Positions 4,112-49,156 of a stretch of DNA of 64,000 bases are shown here, in pieces (position 1 is the first letter of the stretch; the number at the start of each line of letters is the position of its first letter). The position numbers and the translations under genes were made by a program. The stretch comes from Shimia gijangensis. Lineage in GTDB: Bacteria; Pseudomonadota; Alphaproteobacteria; Rhodobacterales; Rhodobacteraceae. The stretch lies in NCBI RefSeq assembly GCF_900142085.1, contig NZ_FQZQ01000007.1, positions 62,001 through 126,000 of the forward strand, read 5' to 3'. A model generated the notes under the pieces. The model saw only the letters and a program-made list of their open reading frames with translations, was not told the origin of the DNA and searched no databases.

Positions 4112-6514
4112 CTAGCTGCGTACAAGATCACCGGCTGGATCATAGCGTGCGGGGGCTACAATTTCTGCGACAACGGGTTGTCCAAGAACATCCACTGTCA
4201 GAGGGGCGTCAGTTTTGTCGAGAAAGCCCATGGCGAGGTTTTCACCAACCCTGTGACCCCAGTCCGCCGAGGTGATGGTGCCGATCACCTTACCACCTGC
4301 ACGGATTGAACTTCCGGGTTGGGCCGGGGCATCTGAGGTTTGGAGCCTGAGAGTGGCGAAGGTTTTGTTTGATGGCGCCTTCAAGCGTTCCTGCAGGGCA
4401 GCTTTGCCAATGAAATCGAGCTTGTCCATTTTTACAAAGCGCCCGAGATCAGATTCAAATGGATCAAACTCGGTGATCAGATCGGCCTTCCAGTGGCGAT
4501 AACCTTTCTCGAGGCGCATGGATTCCACCGTGCGGGCTCCGAACAGGGTGAGGTTGTACGCCGCGCCCGCTGCCCGCAGGGCAGAGTAAGCCGCAAAGAG
4601 CGAGGCGTTGGGGACGTGAATTTCATAGGCCAACTCTCCTGAGAAGCTGACCGCCATGACCACGGCGGGGGCGATGCCAATAAAGGCTTCGCGGACCGAG
4701 AGCCAAGGGAAGGCAGAGGGTGACCAGTCACCACGTGACGTGGCCGAAAGAACGTCGCGGGCCTTGGGACCGGCAAGAACCAGAATGGTGATGTCGTTGG
4801 TCAGGTTGCGGATCGCGACACCTTGGGGCGCGTGGGCCGTCAGCCAATCCATGTCGTGATACTCGGATGCGGCGGCTGAGCCATACCAGATGCGCCCGTC
4901 CGGCAGATTGGCAATCGTGGCTTCAGATTTGATGCAACCGTGGTGGTTCAGCATATATCCAAGGCCAACGCGCCCCGGTTTGCGGGTGATAAATCCGCAA
5001 AACATCGTATCAAGCCAGTCAAGCGCGTCAGCGCCAGAGATTTCAAAGCGGTTGAAGCCATTGACCTCGGTCAGGCCGACGCCGTTTTGTACAGCTTTGA
5101 CTTCGGCTGCGACCACATCAAACGCCTCGTTAAAGCGATAACCATGGGTTTCGTGGAAATCCGGCGTTGGTTTGAAGTAATCTGCCCGCTCCCAGCCGTT
5201 CACAGGGGTGAATTTGGCGCCCTCGACCTGAAGAACCGGGGTCAGGGGCGTTGTTTTGGCAAAGCGCCCGGCGGGGCGGTGCTCATGCGGGAAATGAAAC
5301 CGGAATTCGTTCTGGTAGTCTTCGATTGCCTTAAGTGCAGTGAGTTCTACATTGGCGTGGCCGGTAAAGCGGCGCGGATCCAGGCACCAGGTGTCATAGA
5401 CAGCTTCTCCGTGCACAATTTGTTGCGCCAAAAGCCAGCCATGGCCGCCGCCTTCGCCAAGGCCCGCGCGCAGGCCGATGATACAAAACGCGTTGCGCTT
5501 GCCGGGGATCGGGCCCACCAAAGGCGCGCCGTCGATGGTATAGGTGATCGGGCCATTGACCACCGTGCGAATGCCAGTTTCCTGCAAGGCGGGCATGCGC
5601 GCAAAAGCCCCTTCCAGAACGTCCATCACCCGGTCGATATCATCCGGGCACAAGGCATTTACGAAATTCGGATCGATCCCGTCGAGCCCCCAAGTTTTGC
5701 AGTCCTGTTCATAAAAACCCACCAAAAGACCGTTCTTTTCTTGGCGGCAATAATAATCGCTGATCGGACAGCGCAGCAGTGGCATTCTGTGCCCGGCCTC
5801 GGCAATGGCGGGGATGTCTTCGGTCAGAAAATACTGATGCTCCATCGATGCAACCGGATGCTGCACCCCCATCATGGCCCCGACTTCGTTCACCCGGTAG
5901 CCGCCCGCATTCACCACGATTTCGCAGTCGATGTCGCCTTGCGCTGTGTGAACGGTCCAGCTGTCATCGGGATGTTGGGTGAGACCGGTCACAGGCGTAT
6001 TTCGGTAAACCTCGGCCTCGGCTTTGCGGGCGCGTCGCGCCAGTGCCTGACATAGCTGCGCGGGGTCAATATCCCCGTCATGTGGATCCCACAGCCCACC
6101 AACAAGGTTGTCCGTCGAGATCAACGGGTGGCGTCGCGCACATTCTGCCGCGTCGATCACTTCAAATTCGACTCCCATGCCATCGGCCTGAGACACAAAA
6201 TGCCGGTAACCATCCATCTGGGCTTCGGTATTGGCCAGACGAATGCCGCCGTCGCCATAGTGATAGCCAACCGGATAGTCCGGATCAGCCGCCAGTTCGC
6301 GGTAAAGGGCAATAGAATGCGATTTCAGGCCCAGCATGGTCTGGTTCATGCCAAAGTTGGTCACCTGTGCTGCAGAGTGCCATGTGGTGCCGCTGGTCAG
6401 CTCGTTACGTTCGATCAGAACCACGTCTGTCCAGCCTTCCTGGGTCAGGTGGTAAAGCGTGGAACATCCGGCGATGCCGCCGCCAATAACAACGACGCGA
6501 GTGGTGGATTTCAT
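4112..6514 (-). CDS. Dimethylglycine/sarcosine dehydrogenase-type FAD protein with GcvT domains
   Basis: 800-residue fusion of an FAD-dependent amine oxidase (DAO fold, about 5-370, dinucleotide motif VVVIGGGIAGCSTLYHL), a FAO_M linker (about 375-430), and a C-terminal GcvT/aminomethyltransferase half (about 440-795, with FSGELAYEIHVP and MRLEKGYRHW). His46 in SGTTWHSAA is at the position where FAD is covalently attached in dimethylglycine and sarcosine dehydrogenases. Such enzymes oxidatively N-demethylate methylated glycines, the GcvT half capturing formaldehyde as methylene-tetrahydrofolate. The start has SD CCGGAG. It is transcribed divergently from an MttB-family methyltransferase, consistent with a shared role in betaine or methylamine breakdown. 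Exact substrate is not determinable here. Confidence 0.88.
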   Translation of the reverse strand: MKSTTRVVVIGGGIAGCSTLYHLTQEGWTDVVLIERNELTSGTTWHSAAQVTNFGMNQTMLGLKSHSIALYRELAADPDYPVGYHYGDGGIRLANTEAQMDGYRHFVSQADGMGVEFEVIDAAECARRHPLISTDNLVGGLWDPHDGDIDPAQLCQALARRARKAEAEVYRNTPVTGLTQHPDDSWTVHTAQGDIDCEIVVNAGGYRVNEVGAMMGVQHPVASMEHQYFLTEDIPAIAEAGHRMPLLRCPISDYYCRQEKNGLLVGFYEQDCKTWGLDGIDPNFVNALCPDDIDRVMDVLEGAFARMPALQETGIRTVVNGPITYTIDGAPLVGPIPGKRNAFCIIGLRAGLGEGGGHGWLLAQQIVHGEAVYDTWCLDPRRFTGHANVELTALKAIEDYQNEFRFHFPHEHRPAGRFAKTTPLTPVLQVEGAKFTPVNGWERADYFKPTPDFHETHGYRFNEAFDVVAAEVKAVQNGVGLTEVNGFNRFEISGADALDWLDTMFCGFITRKPGRVGLGYMLNHHGCIKSEATIANLPDGRIWYGSAAASEYHDMDWLTAHAPQGVAIRNLTNDITILVLAGPKARDVLSATSRGDWSPSAFPWLSVREAFIGIAPAVVMAVSFSGELAYEIHVPNASLFAAYSALRAAGAAYNLTLFGARTVESMRLEKGYRHWKADLITEFDPFESDLGRFVKMDKLDFIGKAALQERLKAPSNKTFATLRLQTSDAPAQPGSSIRAGGKVIGTITSADWGHRVGENLAMGFLDKTDAPLTVDVLGQPVVAEIVAPARYDPAGDLVRS

Positions 6515-6698: not shown

Positions 6699-8231
6699 AT
6701 GAATTCCCAAAAACCAGTCAAAAAGCGCCGTTCGGGCCGTCGGGAGAAGTTGTTGCAGCGCGCCGCGCCTGTCGCGGTGAACCCATGTCCGCCTGGACAA
6801 GTTGGCGGGCAGTACACTCCGCTGAGCCATGCAGACTGTCAGGCGATCTATAATATGGCGCTGCGGTTGCTGGATGATCTGGGAATGGGCGAAGTCCCGA
6901 ATGGGCTTCGTGATCAACTATTGGCACAGGGTGCCCGTCTTAATGGCGCGCGCGTGCAAATTCCTCCGGCTTTGGTTGCGGCGGCGATTGATGCGGCCCC
7001 ATCCGAGTTTACATTGAACGGGCGGGACCCGGCGCGCTCGATCACTGTGGGGGGGGACCGCGTGCATTTTGGCACCGGTGGCGCAGCGGTTCAGGCCTTG
7101 GATCTCGATAGCGGCGACTACCGCCCGTCCACTGTGCAGGACCTCTATGACTTTACCCGTCTGCAAGATGGGTTGGAGAATGTCAGCTGGTTCACCCGCT
7201 GTTGTGTTGCCACGGATATGCCGGACGATTTGTTGCTGGATGTGAACACGGTTTTCGCGCTTTTGAAGGGTACGACGAAACCTGTCGCCACATCCTTCAC
7301 GGTGGCCGAGAACGTCGCGCCCATTATTGAGATGGTCGAGATCGCCGATGGCGCGGGAAGTTTTGCGCGCCATCCATGGATCAAGGCGCATATTTCGCCG
7401 GTGATTTCGCCAATGCGCTATGGAGAAGACGCGGTGGATGTCGCGCTGGAATGTATCCGCCATAACATCCCGATGAGCTGCATCACCGCCGCGCAATCCG
7501 GGGCAACAGCCCCGGCGACTCTGGCGGGGTTTCTGGCGCAATCGCTGGCGGAAACGCTGGCAAGTCTGGTGATGGTGCATGTCTATGCGCCGGGGTATCC
7601 GATGGTGTTTTCAAATTGGCCACTGGTGATTGATCTTCGTACCGGGGCATTTTGTGGCGGTGGCGGTGAAATCAGCGTACTGAATGCCGCATCGGCGCAG
7701 TTGATCAATTGGCTGGGACTGGTGTCTGGCGTGGCCTGTTCGATGACAGATGCCAAGTCTTTGGATGCACAATATGGCATGGAAAAGGGTATTTCGGCCA
7801 TGGCCGCAGGGCTGGCTGGCGGCAATCTGATTTACGAAAGCGCTGGTATGACCGCATCCCTGCTGGGTGTGTCTTTTGAAGCCTTCCTGTTGGACAATGA
7901 CATGCTTGCCCATGTCTACCGCGCGTTGCGCGGAATCGAGGTGAGTGACGACACGCTGGGTTATGATGCGATTGTCGAGGCGGTGATGGGCGAGGGGCAT
8001 TTTCTTGGCGGAGCGCAGACCATGGCTGCGATGGAACGGGATTACTTTTATCCGGAAATGGCCGACCGCGATGCACCAATCACCTGGTCGGAACAGGGGC
8101 GTAAAGATGCCTGGGCGCGGGCCAATCTACGGGCGCGCGAAATTCTGGCCAAACCTGATCCCGGCTATCTGGATTCGGCGGCAGAGACTGCCATTCGTGC
8201 ACAGTTTGATATCCGGCTGGGATCGGTTTGA
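6699..8231 (+). CDS. MttB-family (trimethylamine methyltransferase-like) protein, non-pyrrolysine
   Basis: 510 residues, the full length of the MttB superfamily. Family blocks seen include QIPPALVAAAIDAAP, FGTGGAAVQALD, the TIM-barrel stretch AHISPVISPMRYG and AGLAGGNLIYESAGM. Members transfer a methyl group from a quaternary or tertiary amine to a corrinoid protein. True trimethylamine MttB contains pyrrolysine at an in-frame amber codon; this gene has no internal TAG, so it belongs to the non-pyrrolysine branch, of which MtgB (glycine betaine) is characterised. No corrinoid-protein gene is adjacent. It is divergent from the dimethylglycine-dehydrogenase-type gene and convergent with a LysR gene. 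The N-terminus (basic, RRSGRREK) is typical; SD at the chosen ATG is weak. Confidence 0.88.
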   Translation: MNSQKPVKKRRSGRREKLLQRAAPVAVNPCPPGQVGGQYTPLSHADCQAIYNMALRLLDDLGMGEVPNGLRDQLLAQGARLNGARVQIPPALVAAAIDAAPSEFTLNGRDPARSITVGGDRVHFGTGGAAVQALDLDSGDYRPSTVQDLYDFTRLQDGLENVSWFTRCCVATDMPDDLLLDVNTVFALLKGTTKPVATSFTVAENVAPIIEMVEIADGAGSFARHPWIKAHISPVISPMRYGEDAVDVALECIRHNIPMSCITAAQSGATAPATLAGFLAQSLAETLASLVMVHVYAPGYPMVFSNWPLVIDLRTGAFCGGGGEISVLNAASAQLINWLGLVSGVACSMTDAKSLDAQYGMEKGISAMAAGLAGGNLIYESAGMTASLLGVSFEAFLLDNDMLAHVYRALRGIEVSDDTLGYDAIVEAVMGEGHFLGGAQTMAAMERDYFYPEMADRDAPITWSEQGRKDAWARANLRAREILAKPDPGYLDSAAETAIRAQFDIRLGSV

Positions 8232-45299: not shown

Positions 45300-46976
45300 A
45301 TGAGCTACAAATCAGACATCGAAATCGCCCGCGAGGCAAAGAAACGCCCGATTCAGGAAATCGGCGCGAAAATTGGTATTGGGACGGATGACCTGCTGCC
45401 CTATGGCCACGACAAAGCCAAGGTGAGCCAACAGTTCATCAACTCGGTTAAATCCAAGGAAGACGGCAAGCTGATCCTTGTGACAGCGATCAACCCAACG
45501 CCCGCGGGCGAAGGCAAGACCACCACAACAGTGGGTCTGGGTGACGGTCTGAACCGCATCGGCAAAAACGCCATGATCTGTATCCGCGAAGCGTCGTTGG
45601 GTCCGAACTTTGGCATGAAGGGCGGCGCCGCAGGTGGCGGTTACGCACAAGTGGTGCCGATGGAGGACATGAACCTGCACTTCACAGGTGACTTCCACGC
45701 CATCACATCCGCGCACTCGCTGTTGTCGGCGATGATCGACAACCACATCTATTGGGGCAATGAGACCGAAATCGACATCCGTCGTGTTCAGTGGAAACGC
45801 GTTGTCGACATGAACGACCGCGCCCTGCGTCAGGTCAACGTTTCGCTTGGCGGCGTGGCCAACGGCTTCCCGCGTGAAGGTGGTTTTGACATCACAGTGG
45901 CTTCCGAAGTCATGGCGATCCTGTGTCTTGCCAACGACCTCAAAGACCTCGAGCAACGTTTGGGTGACATGATCGTGGCCTATCGCCGTGACCGTTCGCC
46001 CGTATTCTGCCGCGACATCAAAGCCGAAGGCGCGATGACCGTGTTGCTGAAGGACGCGATGCAGCCGAACCTTGTGCAGACGCTGGAAAACAACCCGGCG
46101 TTTGTGCACGGTGGTCCGTTCGCCAACATCGCCCATGGCTGTAACTCGGTCATCGCCACTTCAACCGCGCTGAAAGTGGCCGACTATGTCGTCACCGAAG
46201 CGGGCTTTGGTGCTGATCTGGGTGCTGAAAAGTTCATGAACATCAAATGCCGCAAAGCTGGTCTTGCACCCGATTGTGTGGTGCTGGTTGCGACTGTGCG
46301 TGCGATGAAGATGAACGGCGGCGTGGCCAAGGCTGATCTTGGCACTGAAAACGTCGATGCTGTGAACGAAGGTTGTGCAAACCTTGGCCGCCACATCGGC
46401 AACCTCAAGTCGTTTGGTGTGCCGGTTGTTGTCGCCATCAACCACTTTGTCACCGACACAGACGCCGAAGTTCAGGCCGTCAAAGACTATGTTGAAACCC
46501 AAGGCTCTGAAGCGATTGTTTCGCAGCACTGGGAATTTGGCTCGAAAGGCTCGGAAGAGCTGGCCAAACGCGTGGCTGAGATTGCTGACAGCGGCGTCAG
46601 CCAGTTCGCACCTCTCTATGCCGACGACCTGTCGCTGTTTGAGAAAATCGAACGCGTCGCCAAAGGCATCTACCGTGCCGATGACGTGATCGCAGACAAG
46701 AAAATCCGCGATCAGCTGCGTCTGTGGGAAGAGCAAGGCTACGGCCATTTGCCAGTCTGTATGGCCAAAACACAGTACTCGTTCTCGACCGATCCGACGC
46801 TGCGCGGCGCGCCCACAGGACACTCGGTGCCCGTACGTGAAGTGCGCCTGTCAGCAGGGGCTGGATTCGTCGTGGTTGTCTGCGGTGAAATCATGACTAT
46901 GCCCGGTTTGCCCCGCACTCCAGCGGCAGAAACCATCTGCCTCAATGACGCAGGTGAGATCGAAGGCTTGTTCTAA
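45300..46976 (+). CDS. fhs: Formate-tetrahydrofolate ligase
   Basis: 558 residues, the standard length. It makes 10-formyl-THF from formate, THF and ATP, or runs in reverse to release formate during C1 oxidation. Motifs: P-loop-like [15 protein letters not shown] (66-80), [21 protein letters not shown] (split here) and [13 protein letters not shown]. It heads a group fhs - AroQ-type gene - folD - folD, all plus strand with gaps of 10-54 bases. Frame is open upstream, but ATG at 45300 gives the canonical N-terminus. In roseobacters this pathway oxidises methyl groups from DMSP and methylated amines. Confidence 0.97.
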
Positions 46977-47030: not shown

Positions 47031-47336
47031 ATGACCTTTCTGAAACCTCCCCAAGATTGCCATTCGATGGAAGCGCTTCGCGCCGAAATTGATACGTTGG
47101 ACAAGTCTTTGGTGACACTACTGGCGGCCCGGGCGGGATACATCGACCGCGCCATTGACCTGAAGCAGATCAACGGTTGGCCAGCACGTATCCCGGAACG
47201 GGTTGAAGAAGTGGTTAAAAACGCAACTCAACACGCCGAACACGAAGGGTTGAATCCTGACCTGGTCGAACAGCTTTGGCGACAATTGATAGAGTGGTCG
47301 ATTGCCCGCGAGGCCGCGGTCATCGGAACCAAATAA
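47031..47336 (+). CDS. Small AroQ-fold chorismate mutase (PchB-like)
   Basis: 101 residues, all-helical AroQ fold. Active-site candidates: Arg17 (MEALRAEIDTLD), Arg34 (LLAARAGYID), Lys45 (IDLKQ) and the Arg-Val-Glu helix start (IPERVEEVV). The N-terminus PPQDCHSMEALRAEID and the loop before PERV resemble isochorismate pyruvate lyase PchB, which also has chorismate mutase activity. It would convert chorismate to prephenate for Phe/Tyr synthesis, or act on isochorismate. Its placement between fhs and folD is unexpected for either role; no siderophore or salicylate genes are nearby. Confidence 0.85.
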   Translation: MTFLKPPQDCHSMEALRAEIDTLDKSLVTLLAARAGYIDRAIDLKQINGWPARIPERVEEVVKNATQHAEHEGLNPDLVEQLWRQLIEWSIAREAAVIGTK

Positions 47337-47346
47337 AGGGGCGTCC

Positions 47347-48240
47347 ATGCGCGCTGCAGTCATTGATGGCAAAGCCATCGCCGCTGAACTTAGGTCCGAG
47401 GTGAACCTGAAAGCGCAAGACCTTGCAAGCCAAGGTTGGCAACCGATGCTGATTTCCGTCAGCGTTGGAGATGCCGCCGCTTCCGAGATTTATGTGCGAA
47501 ACCAGCAACGTCAGGCCAACAGCGCCGGCGTTGAGTTTGAGGCGCGCAACTATCCTGCCGAAACATCGCTGGAACAGCTTATCGGCATTCTGCAGGGCCT
47601 GAACGCTGATCCGCGCGTCAATGGCGTGATTATTCAACGCCCATTGCCAGATCATATCCCGGTGAAAGTGCTACAAAAGGCCGTACATCCGTTGAAAGAT
47701 GTCGAAGGCATGCACCCCGCGTCCATTGGCAACATCGTCTACAACGACCTCGCCCTCGGGCCTTGTACCGCCGTGGCCTCTGTGGAAATCCTCAAAACTC
47801 TGCCGTTGCAGATGGAGGGGTTGAACGTCACCGTGATTGGCCATTCCGAGATTGTTGGCAAACCGATTGCCTTCTTGTTGATGGGCCTCGGGGCCACAGT
47901 GACTGTGTGTCATCATATGACCCGTTCGGTCGCGATGCACAGCCGCGCGGCGGACGCGGTGTTCGTCGCGGTCGGCAAACCCGGTCTGGTCACCGGAGAC
48001 ATGCTGAAACCCGGTGCGGCGTTGATTGATATTGGGATCAACCGCATAGAGACGCCAGACGGTCCGCGCACCGTTGGCGATGCAGATTTCGACAGCTGCG
48101 CCGAAGTGGCAGGCTGGATCACCCCTGTTCCGGGAGGCGTTGGCCCGGTGACAGTAGCGACATTGATGAAAAATGCCGTTCTCGCAACGCGCCTGCAAAT
48201 GGATCACTACCGGGATGCCTATGCCCGGACCGATGTGTAA
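47347..48240 (+). CDS. folD: FolD paralogue 1 with substituted cyclohydrolase residues
   Basis: 297 residues, FolD fold throughout: N-terminal catalytic lobe and Rossmann lobe ([13 protein letters not shown], then [19 protein letters not shown]). In FolD the motif Y-V-x-x-K holds the catalytic lysine (human Lys56). Here it is YVRNQ, so Lys is Gln53 (codon CAG, 47503-47505). The active-site DVDG is DVEG (Glu120), and the Arg of the cofactor motif GRS is His166. Tyr49 and Gln97 are kept. By analogy with human Lys56 variants, dehydrogenase activity may remain while cyclohydrolase is lost; His166 could alter NADP preference. SD and ATG at 47347; 10 bases after the AroQ-type gene. Best read as a specialised methylene-THF dehydrogenase. 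Confidence 0.9.
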
Positions 48241-48253
48241 GAGGAAAGATAAA

Positions 48254-49156
48254 ATGGCAGCAACAATTATCGATGGTAAGGCCTTTGCGGCCACCGTTCG
48301 CGAAAAAGTAGCGGCGCACGTAACCCGCATCAAAGAAGAAAACGGCATCACACCCGGCCTGGCCGTGGTGTTGGTGGGCGAAGACCCCGCATCTCAGGTT
48401 TATGTCCGCTCGAAAGGCAAGCAGACCGTTGAGGTTGGCATGAATTCTTACGAGTACAAAATGGACGTGGATACGTCGGAAGAAGACCTTCTGGCAGTGA
48501 TCGACAAGCTGAACAATGATCCTGCGGTGCATGGCATTCTGGTGCAATTGCCGTTGCCTGGCCATTTGAACGAAGACCTGATCATCAACTCGATCTCACC
48601 CGCCAAAGACGTGGATGGGTTCCATATCTCAAACGTTGGCCTGTTGGGCACCGGTCAGAAATCCATGGTGCCTTGTACACCACTTGGGTGTCTGATGATG
48701 CTGCGTGACCACCACGGGTCACTGTCGGGAATGGACGCTGTCGTTGTTGGCCGATCAAACATCGTTGGTAAACCCATGGCGCAATTGCTGCTGGGCGACA
48801 GCTGTACTGTAACCATCGCGCATTCGCGCACCAAAGACCTGCCGGATGTTGTGCGTCGCGCCGATATCGTTGTGGCCGCCGTAGGGCGCCCTGAAATGGT
48901 GCCTGGTGGCTGGATCAAAGAAGGCGCCACCGTGATTGACGTGGGCATCAACCGCATCGATGCGCCGGAAAAAGGCGAAGGCAAAACCCGTCTGGTGGGC
49001 GACGTACATTATGAAAGCGCGGCTGCTGTGGCAGGGGCCATCACGCCAGTGCCCGGTGGCGTTGGTCCAATGACCATTGCGTGCCTGTTGGCCAATACAG
49101 TCACAGCCTGCTGTCGTGCCAACGGTCTGGCCGAGCCAGAAGGGCTGACTGCGTAA
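48254..49156 (+). CDS. folD: Bifunctional methylene-THF dehydrogenase/methenyl-THF cyclohydrolase FolD (paralogue 2)
   Basis: 300 residues with all usual residues: Tyr50 and Lys54 in [10 protein letters not shown], Gln in [11 protein letters not shown], the DVDGFH aspartate, and Arg in [11 protein letters not shown] for NADP. It interconverts 5,10-methylene-, 5,10-methenyl- and 10-formyl-THF. It begins 13 bases after its divergent paralogue and is the last gene of the fhs group. Having a full-function copy next to a substituted copy suggests division of labour between the oxidative and biosynthetic directions. GAGGAAAG precedes the ATG. Confidence 0.97.

Follow-up and report, generated by a model that had tools for sequence, protein, structure and literature searches.

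A conserved FolD lineage lacking the catalytic lysine, encoded beside an ordinary FolD in Shimia gijangensis: a candidate dehydrogenase-only methylene-THF oxidase

Why should a bacterium carry two neighboring folD genes, one of which encodes glutamine in place of the catalytic lysine? FolD is treated as a bifunctional enzyme with strictly conserved catalytic residues (PMC3338484). Its lysine is reported to take part in the cyclohydrolase step as well as assisting hydride transfer, with a loop glutamine positioning this lysine and an aspartate holding the pterin head group (PMC3338484, PMC3368264). The pair considered here lies on a contig of Shimia gijangensis (NZ_FQZQ01000007.1), of which a stretch of 64,000 nucleotides, hereafter the window, was analyzed. 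In window coordinates, the gene group comprises:

45300..46976, forward strand: fhs, formate--tetrahydrofolate ligase, the member of this group upstream of folD1 (PF01268, E 6.7e-269; NF010030 above cut-off)
47031..47336, forward strand: chorismate-mutase-like gene between fhs and folD1 (PF01817; TIGR01803 above cut-off)
47347..48240, forward strand: folD1, a FolD-family gene of a distinct clade (PF00763 and PF02882; clade support 100/100)
48254..49156, forward strand: folD2, an ordinary bifunctional FolD (PRK14188 cut-off passed; Lys, Asp, Arg, and Ser kept)

Reading frames and Pfam domains agree with the first-pass annotation that both genes are intact and 13 bases apart (48241-48253). folD1 starts with ATG and encodes 297 aa without interruption, and folD2 runs from an ATG at 48254 to a stop at 49156 and encodes 300 aa. 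The two proteins are 40% identical across 285 aligned positions, and in each of them both Pfam domains of FolD score above cut-off, at 107 bits for PF00763 and 183 bits for PF02882 in FolD1. FolD2 also scores 513 bits against NCBIfam PRK14188 (cut-off 396); of the 30 NCBIfam FolD models that FolD1 matched, it stays below cut-off in each of the 25 listed, its best score among these being 287 bits against 421 required. The two are the only PF02882 matches above the family cut-off in their 4.09 Mb genome, a third match on the same contig (86717-86992) falling under it, and the genome gave no match to an Fch-type cyclohydrolase (PF04961).

FolD1 and FolD2 differ most tellingly in the active site. 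Proteins were grouped according to their overall resemblance to FolD1, FolD2, or E. coli FolD, and residues were tallied at E. coli positions in 120 distinct FolD1-type proteins and 134 other FolDs. The positions that set FolD1 apart are encoded at:

47503..47505, forward strand: Gln53 codon (E. coli Lys54, human Lys56; catalytic lysine lost), Gln in 120/120 FolD1-type proteins vs Lys in 134/134 others
47638..47640, forward strand: Arg98 codon (E. coli Leu99, human Leu101; a new arginine next to the loop Gln, itself conserved), Arg in 120/120
47704..47706, forward strand: Glu120 codon (E. coli Asp121, human Asp125), Glu in 119/120 vs Asp in 134/134
47842..47844, forward strand: His166 codon (human Arg173 position), His in 120/120 vs Arg in 133/134
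47914..47916, forward strand: His190 codon (human Ser197 position), His in 118/120 vs Ser in 130/134

The motif differences described at first pass are all present in the sequence, namely Y49VRNQ53 vs YVRSK, DVE120G vs DVDG, and GH166S vs GRS, with the tyrosine and the LP-loop glutamine kept in both proteins. Two further fixed changes had escaped it: Leu99 to Arg (R98) and the replacement of the human Ser197 equivalent by His (H190). Among the 134 other FolDs, Lys54 to Gln occurs in none, and position 99 is Leu in 127 and Arg in none. Most of these FolDs are alphaproteobacterial, a few coming from elsewhere (E. coli, Acinetobacter, Rhodococcus, and Haloarcula), so that loss of the lysine cannot be claimed as unique to FolD1. 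Much of the site is left as it was: Tyr50 is found in 120/120 FolD1-type proteins and is unchanged in the other FolDs too, the loop Gln98 in 120/120 and 133/134, respectively, and His196, between the two changed 2'-phosphate residues, in 119/120; the remaining cofactor and substrate motifs are also kept. In total, 15 columns are fixed differently between the two sets at the 95% level. An earlier tally of 103 FolD1-type proteins against 122 other FolDs agrees. In one member, L015, the motif at the lysine position reads YIRNQ. FolD1 thus carries the Gln54/Arg99/Glu121/His(173)/His(197) set which, together with a single tree branch, defines its clade. Of the features of a bifunctional FolD it has the Pfam domains, Tyr50, and Gln98, and lacks Lys54, Asp121, and a passing NCBIfam model. 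Val38 to Ser, fixed in 119/120, was considered as a sign of lost activity and dropped, the bifunctional Leishmania enzyme being reported to have Ser there (PMC3368264).

In a tree built without six diagnostic columns, a single branch supported at 100/100 separated all 35 sampled FolD1 sequences from the rest; this stem measures 0.97 changes per site, and long branches are flagged in the tree. A quick mixture-model tree with three rows removed again placed FolD1 in one group (SH-aLRT 100). Together with the near-fixed residues, this gives a positive answer to the first-pass question of whether the Gln/Glu/His set marks a conserved clade. The first-pass description of the genes as adjacent paralogues fares less well where it implies that one gene was copied locally from the other: FolD1 represents a lineage of its own that branched off deeply, and because it forms one clade in both trees, recent tandem duplication is ruled out as the origin of the pair.

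Both genes have been retained, as had been argued from their intact frames, and FolD1 is under constraint like that on FolD2. Across 225 random locus pairs (NG86, pairs with dS < 2, dS being high), dN/dS has a median of 0.123 in FolD1 and 0.128 in FolD2, and the largest pairwise values are 0.50 and 0.25, respectively. That FolD1 is a duplicate in decay is accordingly hardly tenable. The loss of a catalytic residue would fit such a fate, but the replacing residues are fixed across FolD1-type proteins, the frames of the FolD1 matches listed hold no internal stops, dN/dS is as low as in FolD2, and the clade is old. The random variation among close homologues that the first-pass annotation named as the mark of decay is not seen, since the Gln/Glu/His set forms a conserved clade.

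The distribution of FolD1 is patchy. Among 120 genomes of the window's family, one per genus, it occurs in 15 (own included) at 57-100% identity, and a clear gap separates these from the remaining matches, which are 37-53% identical to FolD1. It was found in 10/25 genomes of the window's genus, 14/289 of the class, and 15/398 of the phylum, own genome included each time, and all 15 of the phylum sample lie in the window's class. Eight of these 15 (L270-L277) belong to one genus with genomes of 6-7 Mb. A scan of named genome contigs confirmed 503 loci, of which the best 80 show 60-89% identity. FolD1 loci also appear in MAG records named SAR324 (L105), Acidiferrobacteraceae (L104), and Gammaproteobacteria (L113), which are possibly misbinned. 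An ftsH-fhs-folD1-folD2 group (L078) stands under the record title Exiguobacterium profundum MAG, a name that looks wrong because the gene group inside is alphaproteobacterial.

Genomes with FolD1 almost always encode an ordinary FolD as well. This holds for 13/13 near-complete genomes (two full matches each, one of either kind by score, and one of these genomes measuring 1.2 Mb) and for 27/29 distinct FolD1 genomes of a second set, in which G054 and G126 are the same genome counted once and completeness is given for few. The two exceptions are a 1.9 Mb assembly (G128) and a genome with fragments at contig ends only (G002). The latter is again the exception among the FolD1-bearing family genomes, 14/15 of which have an ordinary FolD; five genomes are common to this set and the set of 29. 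In one FolD1-bearing genome (G159, locus L184), the second FolD is divergent: it carries Glu for Gln98 and Thr at the Ser197 position, and has a very long branch.

Gene order around FolD1 is most regular at the 56 loci that most resemble the window's own (L034-L087, L096, and L102), where folD2 lies directly downstream in 55/56 and fhs upstream in 52/56; the other four have no fhs in the available stretch, which in two cases begins <400 bp from FolD1. The expectation that the Gln/Glu/His clade always sits beside a normal folD therefore describes the window-like loci and few others, as elsewhere FolD1 is mostly separate from folD2. The same gene group also occurs without FolD1 at 20 loci of the family, 17 of them with fhs, and FolD1 has thus been gained by, or lost from, a group that exists without it. 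The chorismate-mutase-like gene, present at 32/56 window-like loci, was dropped as a candidate partner of FolD1, as it is also found at 9/20 of these FolD1-free loci.

Away from the window-like arrangement, FolD1 has other neighbors. At L088-L091 it accompanies N-methylglutamate-type genes (glutamate-synthase-like, GXGXG, glutamine amidotransferase, and type III glutamine synthetase) with a helix-turn-helix/cupin regulator nearby. Sarcosine-oxidase-type subunits are found near it at L099, L189, and L252, formate dehydrogenase alpha at L108, L191, and L248, and tdm at L144, L250, and L251. A Ponticoccus plasmid carries formate dehydrogenase, fhs, folD, FolD1, and tdm in this order, and serine-cycle-type genes follow further along.

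We compared the presence of C1 markers at 43 FolD1 loci that are not of the fhs type and at 22 ordinary-FolD loci of FolD1-bearing genomes, the stretch lengths varying between rows. At least one marker is present at 20/43 vs 2/22 (Fisher p 0.0025), leaving 23/43 FolD1 loci with none; this count omits a 35% dmgdh match at the edge of L093 as well as L244, which shares its contig with L093 and was dropped, reducing 44 rows to 43. Leaving out the DAO family, whose name is a loose one and whose members also occur beside FolD1, lowers the figure to 15/43 (p 0.036). When the four related loci L088-L091 and their four controls were collapsed to one each, it became 17/40 with DAO (p 0.017) and, under the strictest counting, without DAO, 12/40 vs 2/19, at which the enrichment is not significant (p 0.19). 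The test leans positive, because the markers were chosen from FolD1 neighborhoods and several reference proteins come from the same loci.

At the genome level, the own genome gave no GmaS match, and co-occurrence of FolD1 with GmaS in the family is not significant (6/15 vs 28/105, p 0.36). It does encode 18 GCV_T-domain proteins at E <= 1e-40, many in frames of 800-1026 codons, a size typical of dimethylglycine dehydrogenase or SoxA; such a number of folate-domain proteins amounts to many potential producers of C1-folate. The median number of GCV_T proteins is 12 in 15 FolD1 genomes vs 7 in 15 without FolD1 (p 0.009), which is weak support for a link because the controls were hand-picked (about every seventh genome, near-complete ones preferred). 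One of them lies within the window, an FAD/GCV_T protein of the dimethylglycine-dehydrogenase type (4115-6514, reverse strand), next to an MttB-family methyltransferase whose frame is not interrupted (6699-8228, forward strand); these two are likely a demethylation pair feeding C1-folate.

What, then, might FolD1 do? The closest experimental guide is E. coli FolD, in which K54N is reported to retain ∼19% of dehydrogenase with cyclohydrolase undetectable, and deletion of K54-R55 likewise to leave no detectable cyclohydrolase (PMC5688156). As K54N behaves in this way, FolD1 has most likely kept the dehydrogenase and lost the cyclohydrolase, by analogy with the mutant. The same source weakens a dehydrogenase-only reading, since K54N loses about four fifths of its dehydrogenase (PMC5688156). 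The first-pass statement that the lysine is needed for the cyclohydrolase thus holds for the E. coli variants described, and its statement that the lysine is dispensable for the dehydrogenase does not. Lys56 of the human enzyme is also ascribed a role in the dehydrogenase step (PMC3368264), which older K56 data are read to place in binding and not in catalysis (PMC9173628). Arg98 may restore part of the missing charge for folate binding or hydride transfer. Some cyclohydrolase may also survive, because Leu99 to Arg adds a positive charge beside the site that could partly replace the lysine.

For the cofactor, replacement of two of the three 2'-phosphate residues, fixed across the clade, suggests that FolD1 prefers NAD+, and NADP should bind less tightly with the His/His pair. 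In the human enzyme, Arg173, His196, and Ser197 are reported to bind the NADP 2'-phosphate (PMC3368264), in line with the role given to the GRS arginine at first pass. That role does not extend to all FolDs, however, and a rule equating this arginine with NADP use was rejected, as the residue is Ala in E. coli FolD (1b0a) and in 4a5o. Since E. coli FolD uses NADP despite this Ala, preference cannot simply be read from one site, and the argument for NAD+ rests on both changed sites together.

We therefore favor, with moderate confidence, a reading in which FolD1 oxidizes methylene-THF as a dehydrogenase only and passes its product on to FolD2, Fhs, and formate dehydrogenase; it is probably an enzyme devoted to methyl-group oxidation, not a spare copy. 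Demethylation of compounds such as sarcosine, dimethylglycine, methylamine, or TMAO would yield 5,10-methylene-THF, which FolD1 would oxidize to 5,10-methenyl-THF. The co-encoded FolD2, or the spontaneous hydrolysis of which methenyl-THF is reported to be capable (PMC5688156), would convert this to 10-formyl-THF. Fhs, running in reverse, would then release ATP and formate, and formate dehydrogenase would complete the oxidation. An oxidative role alongside Fhs had already been proposed at first pass; the neighbors at many loci point the same way, and we infer the direction of flux through FolD1 from them. In R. pomeroyi, loss of fhs is reported to make glycine betaine unusable as sole carbon source and to cause poor growth on choline, which formate helps (PMC4744692).

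Alternatively, FolD1 might still be bifunctional, with Arg98 or a water replacing the lysine when the ring is opened; FolD1 and FolD2 would then differ only in cofactor or regulation. The change Leu99 to Arg is fixed as strictly as Lys54 to Gln (120/120 each) and resembles a relocated charge, and Tyr50 and Gln98 are kept throughout; arginine is, however, a poor general base, an ordinary FolD is almost always found in the same genome, and the E. coli K54N and K54-R55 variants are reported without detectable cyclohydrolase (PMC5688156), which together make this reading unlikely. No likelier is a FolD1 that acts on another one-carbon folate or pterin, or mainly in the reductive direction. Here the strict conservation of the re-made site (Gln53, Arg98, and Glu120), which includes the position of the Asp reported to hold the pterin head group (PMC3338484, PMC3368264), would be explained by a changed substrate; yet Asp121 to Glu retains the carboxylate, and the telling neighbors (fhs, sox, mgs/gmaS, tdm, and fdh) make or consume ordinary C1-THF.

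Quite improbable, although better placed than decay, is a pseudoenzyme or regulatory partner in mixed dimers with FolD2. The 13 bp spacing and the regular position of folD2 at the window-like loci would suit such a partnership, and the Leishmania enzyme is reported to dimerize through its NAD domain (PMC3368264), but most of the other FolD1 genomes encode their ordinary folD away from FolD1, and FolD1 keeps the other cofactor and substrate motifs. A bolder idea, doubtful but more plausible than these alternatives, is a re-centered active site, with the charge moved from 54 to 99, Asp exchanged for Glu, and the cofactor site rebuilt with His, which would make FolD1 an NAD-linked, carolacton-insensitive C1-folate oxidase whose substrate is perhaps a polyglutamate or enzyme-bound C1-folate from demethylases.

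Carolacton, a FolD inhibitor, is reported not to bind E. coli K54N (PMC5688156); as Lys54 is needed, the FolD1 clade should be insensitive. Among the open papers searched, none describes a lysine-free bacterial FolD. On sequence grounds, FolD1 is a known kind of enzyme with a different, fixed active site, and as a lysine-free version kept by evolution, its clade offers a natural experiment on what the lysine does, a matter of debate. A FolD1-type protein is annotated as bifunctional on each of two plasmid records, and such names, as well as metabolic models, may misplace the source of cyclohydrolase, NADPH, or NADH.

Among known systems, bacterial FolD is the closest. FolD1 shares its two Pfam domains, Tyr50, and Gln98, and its best solved relatives are 4a5o (E 3.6e-68), which we take to be P. 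aeruginosa FolD, and E. coli FolD (1b0a, 9.5e-65); it differs in Lys54 to Gln, Leu99 to Arg, Asp121 to Glu, and the His/His 2'-phosphate site. Human MTHFD2, an NAD-linked bifunctional enzyme, is likewise a FolD relative with a changed 2'-phosphate site, but it is reported to keep the catalytic lysine (Lys88) and to bind phosphate through Arg201/Arg233 with Mg (PMC9173628). With Gln for Lys and His at both cofactor places in FolD1, the analogy is imperfect. A FolD tied to methyl-oxidation genes, as FolD1 often is, is encoded in the chloromethane island (purU-folD) of plasmid pCMU01 of Methylorubrum extorquens CM4; this protein (L199) keeps Lys54, Leu99, Asp121, and the Arg, has Lys at the Ser197 site, and falls outside the FolD1 clade. 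Yeast Mtd1 (1edz) is a monofunctional, NAD-dependent methylene-THF dehydrogenase, and FolD1 resembles it in predicted mode only, as an NAD-linked dehydrogenase without cyclohydrolase. The two proteins are distant (E 4.1e-11, with the best stretch covering residues 21-186 only), so that their likeness, if the prediction holds, would be convergent.
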